Assembly (NCBI RefSeq): GCF_900636965.1
Contig: NZ_LR134331.1
Location: 2,666,001-2,730,000 of the forward strand
Source of the DNA: Lacticaseibacillus rhamnosus
GTDB taxonomy: Bacteria > Bacillota > Bacilli > Lactobacillales > Lactobacillaceae
Length of the DNA stretch: 64,000 nucleotides
Direction of reading: 5' to 3'
The position numbers and the translations under genes are program-made. How positions within the stretch are numbered: position 1 is the first letter of the stretch; each line of letters opens with the position of its first letter. This document shows positions 10,284-33,955 of this stretch, piece by piece. Under the pieces are notes generated by a model, which was given only the letters and a program-made list of their open reading frames with translations, had not been told where the DNA came from and made no database searches.

Positions 10284-10403
10284 GAGCGTGAGCTGGCGCG
10301 GTTAGGGATCGGAGTGTAAGTGGCCTTGGGCGTGATGGTCGCACTTTGACCATTGCGACCAAGGTCCTTACACGCAGATCCCTGCGCCAGCGAACGCGTT
10401 ATG
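10284..10403. repeat. 120-bp palindromic repeat, copy B
   Basis: First of three head-to-tail copies. Stems: TAGGGATC/GATCCCTG, GTGTAAG/CTTACAC, CCTTGG/CCAAGG, GATGGTC/GACCATT. It ends ACGCGTTATG, whose last base starts the next copy. Confidence 0.88.
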
Positions 10404-10522
10404 AGCGCGAACCGGCGCGCTTAGAAGTCGGAGTGTAAGTGGCCTCAGGCGTGATGGCCCGCACTTGGCCATTGCGACTGAGGTCCTTACACGCAGATTT
10501 CTGCGCCGGTGAGCGCGTTATG
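10403..10522. repeat. 120-bp palindromic repeat, copy C
   Basis: Second tandem copy. Stems: TAGAAGTC/GATTTCTG (G-U tolerated), CCTCAG/CTGAGG and GATGGCC/GGCCATT. The central stem differs from copy B on both sides in a compensating way. Confidence 0.88.
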
Positions 10523-10640
10523 AGCGTGAGCTGGCGCGGTTAGAGATCGGAGTGTAAACGACCTTGGGCGTGATGGCCGCACCTTGACCATTGCACCCAA
10601 GGTCCCCACACTTCGATCCCTGCGCCAGCAAACGCATAAT
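10522..10640. repeat. 120-bp palindromic repeat, copy D
   Basis: Third tandem copy, with a slightly worn right side (CCCCACACTTCGATCCCTG, ending AACGCATAAT). Stems CCTTGGG/CCCAAGG and AGAGATC/GATCCCT are still pairable. Confidence 0.82.
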
Positions 10641-22658: not shown

Positions 22659-22778
22659 GAGCGCGAGCCGGCGCGCTTAGGGATCGGAATGTAAGCGGCC
22701 TTGGGCGTGATGGCCCGGGCTTGGCCATTGCGACCAAGGTCCTTACATTCCGATCCCTGCGCCGGGGAGCGCGTTTAA
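22659..22778. repeat. 120-bp palindromic repeat, copy E
   Basis: The long inner stem is almost perfect here: GGGATCGGAATGTAAG pairs with CTTACATTCCGATCCC without the bulge seen in other copies. The outer arms are GAGCGCGAGCCGGCGCG and GCGCCGGGGAGCGCG. Confidence 0.88.
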
Positions 22779-22898
22779 GAGCGTGAACAGGAGCGCTTAG
22801 AAATCGGAGTGTAAGTGGCCTCAGACGTGATGGCCCGACTTTGGCCATTGCGGCTGAGGTCCTTACACGGAGATTTCTGCGACTGTGAACGCGTTTAA
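22779..22898. repeat. 120-bp palindromic repeat, copy F
   Basis: Tandem with copy E. Stems TAGAAATC/GATTTCTG, CCTCAG/CTGAGG, GATGGCC/GGCCATT. The outer arm has CAGGAGCG against GCGACTG, so CCGGC/GCCGG is replaced by CAG/CTG with facing GA dinucleotides. Confidence 0.85.
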
Positions 22899-22920
22899 GA
22901 GCGCGAGCCGGCGCGTTATG
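22899..22920. repeat. Collapsed palindromic repeat, copy G
   Basis: A left arm (GAGCGCGAGCCGGCGCG) is joined directly to the terminal TTATG, as expected if recombination between the arms deleted the interior of a third tandem copy. Confidence 0.65.
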
Positions 22921-28883: not shown

Positions 28884-28918
28884 ATCACACTTTCGTCACA
28901 CTTTGTCAGTAGTATAGG
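28884..28918 (+). promoter_or_regulatory. Response-regulator-type promoter of sRNA A
   Basis: ATCACA (28884-28889) and GTCACA (28895-28900) form direct repeats with an 11-bp period. They end 12 nt before a TATAGG -10 box (28913-28918). No normal -35 exists; the second repeat occupies its place, as for PhoB/OmpR-type activators. The identical arrangement recurs at 33294. Confidence 0.65.
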
Positions 28919-28924
28919 AAACAT

Positions 28925-29057
28925 AGAAATGAGCCACCCACTCATCTCTACACCCCAACCTAATTTTCATTTTTCTCCTCCAAAGAAAAATAAGATGATT
29001 GGCCCCCATCCAATCATCACAAAAACGCCCGCTGCCAATACGCAACGGGCGTTTTTG
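28925..29057 (+). ncRNA. Putative sRNA A, sibling of the one at 33334
   Basis: The predicted transcript is about 133 nt. Elements in order: hairpin ATGAG-CCACCCA-CTCAT (28929-28945), an unpaired ACACCCCAACC tract, an unpaired CTCCTCCAAAG (28975-28985) complementary to Shine-Dalgarno sequences, a 9-bp hairpin with loop CCCCCAT (28994-29018), and a terminator ACGCCCG/CGGGCGT with T5. The first 60 nt are nearly identical to sRNA B, while the second hairpin and terminator stem differ in sequence but keep pairing. It has no start codon with a ribosome site. I do not recognise a named family. Confidence 0.65.
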
Positions 29058-29063
29058 TATCAT

Positions 29064-29220: not shown

Positions 29221-29526
29221 TTAAAACGATGGTATTCCCGAGAAATACTTATTAGCAATCGCCTCAGCCATGCCTTCCATGTCAAACAGTACCGTCCGCT
29301 GCGCTAAAGTGAGCTGATACTGATGGTCGCGCATTTCGTCTCTAATGAAATACCCGATTGGCAAGACTTGTGGGGCAATATTGACTCCTTGTATCCGTTT
29401 ATCCGCCACCTTATCAATGGCCTGTTTGATACTTGCAACAATAGCTTGCGATGTCGCATCGGATTGTTTCTCGAAAAGATGCTGCAGTTCTAGCATCTTT
29501 GCAATGAGTTCTTGTTTCTTTTCCAT
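29221..29526 (-). CDS. Small helical protein, possible bacteriocin immunity protein
   Basis: The 101-aa, largely helical protein (KKQELIAKMLELQHLFEKQ..., then IAPQVLPIGYFIRDEMR and LTLAQRTVLFDMEG) has the size and helix pattern of EntA/pediocin-type cytoplasmic immunity proteins. The match is by eye and tentative. GGGGTGA lies 6-10 nt before the ATG. No pre-bacteriocin with a double-glycine leader is visible nearby, so if it is an immunity gene it is an orphan. Confidence 0.45.
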   Translation of the reverse strand: MEKKQELIAKMLELQHLFEKQSDATSQAIVASIKQAIDKVADKRIQGVNIAPQVLPIGYFIRDEMRDHQYQLTLAQRTVLFDMEGMAEAIANKYFSGIPSF

Positions 29527-29887
29527 TTTGGCTCACCCCTTCATTTGTGAACTGATCGTGTCGAATAAACAGCTTGCCCTGGCCGTGCCTTGGTATGCAG
29601 CATACATGAGAGCGGTTGCAATCATCTTAGATTGCCGTTTTTGATTTGGCAAGCAATAATGCTTGTGCTTTTTGAAGATTGTTTGACGAACATGACACTT
29701 GAACAGTCACTTTGAAAATTAAAACACTCCAAAGACAAAATGCTTTACGAGAACAATTTTCCAGCATATGCTATAGCCAATTTCAGACAACTATGCACCT
29801 GTAGATTCTATAGTCCATTTTTCTATGCCTCGTTTACTGACTTAAAAAGACTAATAAACGTTCAATTGCAAAGAGAGGGGAATGATC
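29527..29887. other. Intergenic stretch without a clear gene
   Basis: It holds two short minus-strand frames (a 30-codon one at 29533-29625 ending inside the ribosome site of the next gene, and a 47-codon one just upstream), neither with a ribosome site. A small plus-strand hairpin GCAATC/GATTGC followed by CGTTTTT sits near 29620-29640. The rest is AT-rich and presumably carries the promoters of the flanking genes. Confidence 0.4.
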
Positions 29888-33293: not shown

Positions 33294-33328
33294 TTCACAA
33301 TTCATTCACACCCTGTCTGTAGTATAAG
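33294..33328 (+). promoter_or_regulatory. Response-regulator-type promoter of sRNA B
   Basis: TTCACA (33294-33299) and TTCACA (33305-33310) have an 11-bp period and end 12 nt before TATAAG (33323-33328). Spacing is identical to the sRNA A promoter. Sequence conservation covers the operator and -10, while the base between them varies. Confidence 0.68.
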
Positions 33329-33333
33329 AAACA

Positions 33334-33466
33334 TAGAAATGAGCCACCCACTCATTCCTAAACCCCAACCCAACTTTTTCATTTTTACTCCTCCAAAGTA
33401 GAAATCGTCGATCGTCCCCCAACGATCAGACAGTAAACAGACCGCCCACCCAGCGGTCTGTTTTTG
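33334..33466 (+). ncRNA. Putative sRNA B, sibling of the one at 28925
   Basis: The predicted transcript is about 133 nt and aligns with sRNA A over its whole length. It has the ATGAG-CCACCCA-CTCAT hairpin (33339-33355), AAACCCCAACCC tract, CTCCTCCAAAG (33388-33398), a hairpin GATCGT-CCCCCA-ACGATC (33410-33426) and a terminator CAGACCGC/GCGGTCTG with T5. Loop sequences are conserved while stems vary with pairing kept, which supports a functional RNA. Confidence 0.68.
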
Positions 33467-33469
33467 TGT

Positions 33470-33590
33470 GAGCGCGAGCAGGAGCGCTTAGCAATCGGAG
33501 CATAAGTGGCCTTGAACCTAAATGGCTGGTCTTTGGCCATTTAGGTTCAAGGTCCTTATGTGCAGATTGCTGCGACTGCGAGCGCGTTAT
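33470..33590. repeat. Palindromic repeat, copy I
   Basis: The most diverged yet best paired copy. Stems: TAGCAATC/GATTGCTG, GCATAAG/CTTATGT, and CCTTGAACCTAAATGGC against GGCCATTTAGGTTCAAGG. It begins 3 bp after the sRNA B terminator. Confidence 0.87.
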
Positions 33591-33945
33591 AGAAAGCAGA
33601 ATAAAGCCACCGAATTGCCCAAAAAAGAATACTTCTGTCCCTGCTGCAATTTTCCATCCATAAACACCGGCTTTGGCCATTTAGGTTCAAGGTCCTTATG
33701 TGCAGATTGCTGCGACTGCGAGCGCGTTATAGAAAGCAAAATAAAACCTCCACATTGCCCCCAAAAAAACACTTCTGTCCTTGCTGCAATTTTCCATCCA
33801 TAAACACCGGCTTTGGCCATTTAGGCTTGAGGTCCTTACACGCAGATTGCTGCGACTGCGAGCGCGTTATAGAAAGCAGAATAAAACCACCGAATTGCCC
33901 AAAAAAGAATACTTCTGTCCCTGCTGCAATGTTTCATCCATAAGA
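33531..33945. repeat. Three tandem 140-bp direct repeats
   Basis: Units start at 33531, 33671 and 33811 (CTTTGGCCATTTAGG). Each holds the right half of the palindromic repeat followed by a 75-80 bp AT-rich segment (GAAAGCAGAATAAA... to ...CATCCATAA). Units differ at a few bases, for example AGGTTCAAGG against AGGCTTGAGG, so the duplication is not brand new. Open frames across it are artefacts. Confidence 0.88.
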
Positions 33946-33955
33946 AACACCAAAA

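Follow-up and report, generated by a model that had tools for sequence, protein, structure and literature searches.

Two loci of the 64-kb window (the whole stretch of DNA that was analysed, 64,000 nucleotides), here called A and B, carry on the + strand an operator of two direct hexamer repeats, a −10 hexamer, three hairpins and a terminator (Table 1). An aminotransferase-like gene precedes A, and B is flanked by a minus-strand ORF of 157 aa on one side and a minus-strand PTS-like gene on the other (functions assigned by eye). The first-pass annotation had taken B for a second copy of the sRNA at A, and our comparison bears this out: the two share 77% identity over 115 nt without a gap, and their alignment takes in the operator, the −10 hexamer, the three hairpins and the terminator. 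Operator spacings of 11 and 12 nt had been given; counted on the sequence, the second operator half and the −10 hexamer stand 12 nt apart at either locus. The likeness, put at about 170 bp, covers the sRNA gene itself, but the part past the terminators belongs to a separate dispersed repeat, GAGCGCGAGC, which the window contains nine times at ≤ 2 mismatches (a mean of 0.11 expected by chance). Directly 3′ of B, at 33531-33950, a 140-nt unit stands three times in tandem, with 90-100% identity to the first copy.

Table 1. Features of loci A and B, the dispersed repeat and the sibling loci (window positions, except for C, D and E, which are genome positions).
Feature	Position	Strand	Basis or remark
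B, whole element	33294-33466		
B operator, TTCACA-ATTCA-TTCACA	33294..33310	+	TCACA-N6-TCACA; the window has two
B −10 hexamer, TATAAG	33323..33328	+	12 nt past operator; read from sequence
B putative RNA start	near 33331-33336	+	
B hairpin 1	33334..33360	+	folding; loop CCACCCA unpaired
B single-stranded tract with CCCCAACCCAAC	33361..33380	+	CCCCAACC mean P(unpaired) 0.99
B hairpin 2 with CTCCTCC (anti-Shine-Dalgarno)	33381..33405	+	folding; core conserved across genera
B hairpin 3, loop CCCCCA	33407..33431	+	folding; stem covariation at 9/9 pairs
B terminator hairpin and T run	33435..33466	+	sequence and folding
A, whole element	28884-29058		
A operator, ATCACA-CTTTC-GTCACA	28884..28900	+	
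A −10 hexamer, TATAGG	28913..28918	+	read from sequence
A sRNA	28921..29058	+	hairpins 28924-28950, 28969-28991, 28994-29018; terminator 29019-29058
GAGCGCGAGC repeat	5378, 10284-10538, 22659-22915, 29064, 33470		last two right behind the A and B terminators
C	2730591		591 nt beyond the window end
D	2157374	−	
E	679529 (679500-679592)	−	partial

Within the 64 kb, CTCCTCCAAA occurs twice, only at A and B (expected 0.06), and so does TCACA-N6-TCACA (expected 0.14; 1 of 100 shuffles also gave two). A simple consensus scan of the window listed neither the sRNA promoters nor the two + strand terminators of A and B; the promoters have no −35 box, an absence that would be compatible with activator control but is no proof of it. 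Both RNAs fold far more stably than their dinucleotide shuffles, with z-scores of −7.75 (B) and −11.45 (A) and none of 200 shuffles as low in either case. The C-rich stretches, among them the loop of hairpin 3, are predicted to be mostly unpaired in the ensemble: P(unpaired) is 0.98-1.00 for CCTCCAA, and over TTTTCAT/TTTTTCAT, which holds the CAU directly 5′ of hairpin 2, its mean is 0.51-0.78. The hairpin previously described as the second, with a changed stem and a kept loop, does have a covarying stem and a C-rich loop; it is, however, the third, because CTCCTCCAAAG itself sits in the loop of a hairpin (hairpin 2).

Further siblings in the genome had been anticipated, and a blastn search with B in its own genome (G000) returned five places, A and B together with C, D and a partial copy, E. 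The latter keeps the core, hairpin 3 and the terminator, shows no visible hairpin 1 or operator, and is possibly a decayed copy. A covariance model (R1) of the segment that opens with CATAG and closes with hairpin 3, built from 15 copies (A-D and 11 from four other genomes), returned the same five places. R1 found the family in all 30 genomes of the genus, with one to seven copies each (E ≤ 0.01), in 48 of 251 genomes and 10 of 40 genera of the family (E ≤ 0.001), and in 43 of 198 genomes of the order, 40 of them in other families (E ≤ 0.01; about two expected if the rough E-values are exact), where the members are shorter RNAs. A search of named genomes with the core pattern gave at least 120 stretches, and 80 loci among the matches listed. 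The genera represented among those listed are Lacticaseibacillus, Lactiplantibacillus, Secundi-, Loigo-, Pauci-, Agri- and Latilactobacillus, with further matches in Lactobacillus selangorensis, unclassified Lactobacillus, Vagococcus and one Enterococcus; a single listed match in Propionigenium (L171) looks like chance. On two small Vagococcus fluvialis plasmids (L370 4380-4500 and L371 2460-2590) the core is flanked by C-rich sequence and accompanied by a terminator, the operator being apparently degenerate.

The family had no match in the phage collection. When the window was searched against Rfam, a single tRNA reached its gathering score and no family did so at A or B; a laxer search of four loci (E ≤ 5) gave 14 scattered matches, all below cut-offs. 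LhrC, for which Rfam includes a model, was neither among these 14 nor at gathering score in the window. The Rfam hits ar14 (E 0.0009) and ncr1175 (E 0.013), which overlap A and C, were rejected as lying below gathering scores and coming from unrelated sources.

Selection on RNA structure, as first proposed, is supported by pairing that is kept through double changes and by a tree-based test on the known pairs. In a MAFFT alignment of the 15 copies (A2; the structure was derived from these same copies), 90.1% of cells pair and 14 of the 27 pairs show double changes, values that none of 500 shuffles reached, while slid versions of the alignment pair at no more than 48%. Helix 3 has double changes at 9/9 pairs. 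When 90 distinct copies were fitted to the model, 92.6% of cells paired and 25/27 pairs had double changes, although such a structure-fitted alignment leans towards its structure. The suggested covariation check was made in the manner of R-scape, not with R-scape itself: against a tree-based null, 4/27 pairs were significant on A2 and 21/27 on the structure-fitted alignment, but an agnostic test of all column pairs in a sequence-only alignment of 51 copies left no pair significant (lowest E 1.4), for which the variable length of hairpin 3 is perhaps the reason. The stems covary and the C-rich loops are kept; the family is real and conserved.

The operator lies outside the region on which R1 was built, yet it recurs, as the idea of a common operator would have it: NTCA(C/T)A-N5-NTCA(A/C/T)A stands within 160 nt 5′ of the core in 68 of 79 distinct named loci among the matches listed, the Propionigenium match being counted among the 79 as a miss. 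First-order Markov sequences gave a mean of 0.49 and a maximum of 3 (200 sets), and the reverse complement gave none; the pattern had been picked after sibling loci were inspected. By eye, 10 of the 11 misses come close to the pattern, e.g. CACACTTTCTTCACA. The weight-matrix consensus, TTCACACTTTCTTCACA, is followed by a TANNNT hexamer and then by CATAG or similar. The operator lies at about −25 to −41 of the putative start.

Of 301 genomes, 36 had matches to a stricter operator-plus-hexamer pattern, 40 places in all against three for its control, and none of these genomes belongs to the window's genus. Thirty of the 40 loci were fetched. Twelve looked sRNA-like by eye (C-rich, terminator-ended and ORF-less), 10 of these being diverged and from genera g4 and g30, in which R1 matched nothing, and two being members of the present family; of the remainder, seven (and an eighth place by its letters) share one conserved coding-like stretch, and 11 are other sequences. 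Loci L301-L307 and L315-L317 hold other C-rich, terminator-ended stretches behind the same operator in genera without an R1 match, and these are perhaps diverged or separate sRNA families. In the window's own genome a looser operator pattern was not enriched (20 places versus 27 for the control), and only three of its 20 places are sRNA operators (B, C and D); one belongs to a unit adjacent to ltaS.

To score other promoters we used a weight matrix made from the 68 operator sites among the matches listed; in 384 sampled upstream regions of G000, none scored ≥ 16 and one scored ≥ 11. An operator-like site precedes htrA with a score of 16.1 in G000 and 16.3 in G062, a genome called Latilactobacillus-like here since its sRNA matches that of the Latilactobacillus locus L205; in Lactiplantibacillus G071 the htrA site scores only 4.8, no better than the prsA regions (≤ 4.5). 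A two-gene unit beside an LtaS-like gene has a site scoring 19.8 in G000 and 11.7 in G062. The first proteins of this unit are 26% identical between the two genomes (E 1e-4) and have no Pfam domain above cut-off. In G000 the LtaS-like protein carries a sulfatase domain, and it shares 59% identity with its G062 counterpart. We rejected prsA as a shared target, the operator being absent in 7/7 loci of six genomes (best score 4.5). Control by phosphate (PhoP) was likewise rejected, the box near the G071 phosphate operon being TTTACA. An operator-like GTCAAACAATCTTCAAA at 29671-29687 on the minus strand scores 11.6, the best of the 384, and lies 161 nt before a 101-aa ORF (29221-29526). At locus L308 (G176), an operator-like site stands ∼90 nt 5′ of a lipoprotein-like gene, a possible further member of the regulon.

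Which regulator might bind the operator was approached through the OmpR-type regulators, of which G000, G062 and G071 have 12, 6 and 7 respectively. Five kinds are common to all three genomes: YycF/WalR, a PieR-like protein, and three that we take to be LisR/CovR-like, CroR/VanR-like and PhoP. Among the best 10 PieR-like loci in 114 genomes, the gene has operator-like repeats upstream in 4/4 Latilactobacillus-like and 4/4 Lactiplantibacillus loci (best scores 7.6-13.5) and in 0/2 Lacticaseibacillus loci; the gene upstream of it in G000 has no operator before it either. The other four shared regulators, the LisR-like one included, scored ≤ 5.6 in 12 promoters. The best NCBIfam models for the G071 regulator/sensor pair are PieR and PieS, at 293.8 of 450 and 426.8 of 850 bits, both below cut-off. 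In a search of 151 genomes, a PieS-like sensor was present in all 36 sRNA-positive genomes (E < 1e-60) versus 63 of the 115 others (E ≤ 1e-29); by genus the counts are 10/10 versus 18/30 (Fisher P = 0.015, kinship ignored). In the available part of PMC12826053, LisRK and PieRS are named as regulators of Listeria htrA. Collectively, the promoter repeats, the low scores of the other regulators, the co-occurrence with PieS and the regulation of htrA in Listeria point to the PieR-like protein as the most likely regulator.

The same sRNA family and mechanism could instead be served by another OmpR-type regulator (LisR/CovR-like, CroR/VanR-like, WalR or PhoP), as LisR serves LhrC in Listeria. We regard this as unlikely, though it deserves to be kept in mind: lhrC1-5 are controlled by LisR (PMC4132741, accessible text), LisRK is listed beside PieRS for Listeria htrA (PMC12826053, accessible text), a LisR/CovR-like gene exists in all three genomes examined, and the Lacticaseibacillus PieR-like gene lacks the operator. 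Against it stand the promoter scores of the four other shared regulators and the deviating phosphate-operon box given above, and also the position of the operator, since the LisR-responsive positions of lhrC5 lie upstream of −53 (PMC4132741, accessible text).

As regards the action of the RNAs, the conserved core, UUUUUCAU...ACUCCUCC, is antisense to a generic start, GGAGGAGTAAAAATGAAAAAG, made up of a Shine-Dalgarno sequence (SD), AUG and lysine codons. The conserved TTTTTCATTTTTACTCCTCC has GGAGGAGTAAAAATGAAAAA as its reverse complement, in which SD, AUG and lysine codons stand in register. In B, TTTTTCAT ahead of hairpin 2 together with CTCCTCC is antisense to SD-AUG-AAA-AA. By heuristic calls of gene starts and signal segments, a signal or N-terminal membrane segment is predicted for 24/46 ATGAA starts versus 55/341 others among 387 sampled genes of G000. 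The corresponding counts are 39/87 versus 58/428 among 515 genes of the 79 named loci among the matches listed (L171 left out; some loci share a contig, so that the genes are not all independent). On the 387 genes, a 20-nt core bound starts better than most of its shuffles (4/150 as low) and contrasted signal-peptide genes with the rest (5/150 shuffles as high); a 31-nt core gave no significant result on the same genes, with 34/150 shuffles as good in binding and 29/150 in contrast. On the 515 genes of related species, from loci among the matches listed, a 19-nt core reached a contrast of 1.59 versus 0.24 (sd 0.26), with none of 100 shuffles as high, and 3/100 shuffles reached its mean.

If the RNAs mainly titrated a protein or the ribosome, their C-rich loops being like the 16S anti-Shine-Dalgarno, several unpaired C-rich stretches per RNA and several copies per genome would be understandable. 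We nevertheless judge titration, as opposed to message pairing, improbable: the core keeps CUCCUCC plus UUUUUCAU in register with the start codon and lysine codons, and it contrasts signal-peptide genes more than its own shuffles do.

A coding sequence had been named from the outset as something that might explain the shared region. The minus strand does read ACTTTGGAGGAGTAAAAATGAAAAAG, a good start site for a small MKK... protein behind GGAGGAG, and the plus strand of B reads MSHPLIPKPQPNFFIFTPPK, a frame of 20 aa. This reading is hardly credible: over 46 distinct Lacticaseibacillus copies no open frame is kept on either strand (minus frames of 3-48 aa, 28 plus frames of 6-74 aa, frame shifts between siblings), the operator, −10 hexamer and T run fit the + strand, and the stems covary; a small protein on either strand was rejected. 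The boundary of an inserted mobile repeat had been the other candidate, and a likeness of A and B that merely reflects a copied mobile or repetitive element, as the GAGCGCGAGC repeat after both terminators and the tandem repeat after B could suggest, is scarcely tenable, as the dispersed repeat begins only after the terminator and has nine window matches against two for the sRNA, and other genera retain the operator, the loops and the pairing.

Pairing with translation starts remains our preferred account. A and B would be trans-acting sRNAs of about 135-140 nt from a family of up to seven copies per genome. To judge from the motif, its position and the shared neighbours, an OmpR-type regulator, most likely the PieR-like protein of a PieRS-like two-component system, would bind TTCACA-N5-TTCACA, which takes the −35 position, and respond to envelope or secretion stress by activating the sRNA genes along with htrA and the ltaS-adjacent membrane-protein unit. 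At the sequence level, the three hairpins and the terminator of each RNA leave C-rich stretches unpaired, and the RNA carries the conserved antisense core. The core may then pair with SD-AUG-Lys starts, preferably those of signal-peptide (MKK...) proteins, and block ribosome binding, which would ease the load on export at a time when HtrA removes misfolded protein. With several copies the dose would rise, and the stems and some loops would be free to drift. On balance, then, the family probably consists of envelope-stress sRNAs that block translation starts; we infer expression, regulator, stimulus and targets. More tentatively, the Lactobacillales may possess a secretion-stress response of sigma-E-like design made of other parts, in which one two-component system raises HtrA and, simultaneously, up to seven sibling sRNAs that, through a core antisense to a generic SD-AUG-Lys-Lys start, throttle signal-peptide proteins as a class, not as single genes. 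Lactic acid bacteria, food and probiotic species included, would thus gain a conserved sRNA regulon for which there are an operator, a candidate for the regulator and a target rule open to testing.

We found no earlier description of the family in Lactobacillaceae among the open-access papers searched; for L. casei Zhang, RNA-seq has yielded a list of 208 sRNAs. The csRNAs of Streptococcus, controlled by CiaR, resemble the present RNAs in being siblings under an OmpR-type regulator (a candidate one here) with a direct hexamer repeat of 5-nt spacing, and in leaving anti-SD and anti-start (CAU) sequences unpaired (PMC3091779, in the part available); htrA belongs to the same regulon there, as it may here (PMC3091779 and PMC12826053, in the parts available). 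The csRNA operator is TTTAAG-N5-TTTAAG, whereas here it is TTCACA (consensus TTCACACTTTCTTCACA), i.e. not that of CiaR. Most csRNAs have two stem-loops, in contrast to the larger RNA with three hairpins before its terminator found here, and CiaH homologues are reported from streptococci only (both according to the available part of PMC3091779).

LhrC1-5 of Listeria, with Rli22 and Rli33-1, are likewise multi-copy and have redundant C-rich sites in loops and linker; they are under envelope-stress two-component control, and their sites pair with the SD region (PMC4132741 and PMC5880928, accessible portions). LhrC carries UCCC motifs, whereas the present family has CUCCUCC plus the UUUUUCAU core, and the operator position differs as well. 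As for the PieRS regulon of Listeria, to which htrA is reported to belong (PMC12826053, accessible portion), the accessible text of the PieRS paper (PMC12234432) is without an occurrence of 'small RNA'. The candidate regulator and sensor are PieR- and PieS-like, yet below the NCBIfam cut-offs; htrA shares the promoter element here in two genera and scores low in the third, and prsA, a target in Listeria, is operator-free here.

In Escherichia coli, envelope stress raises the sigma-E sRNAs RybB, MicA and MicL, which lower envelope-protein synthesis. They differ from the present family in regulator class, sequence and host, and the parallel is an analogy only. The best reading of the sequence comparisons is that the family would work like the csRNAs and LhrC while being separate from both by the features tested, which suggests that related bacteria have recurrently adopted the sibling-sRNA design seen in Streptococcus and Listeria.
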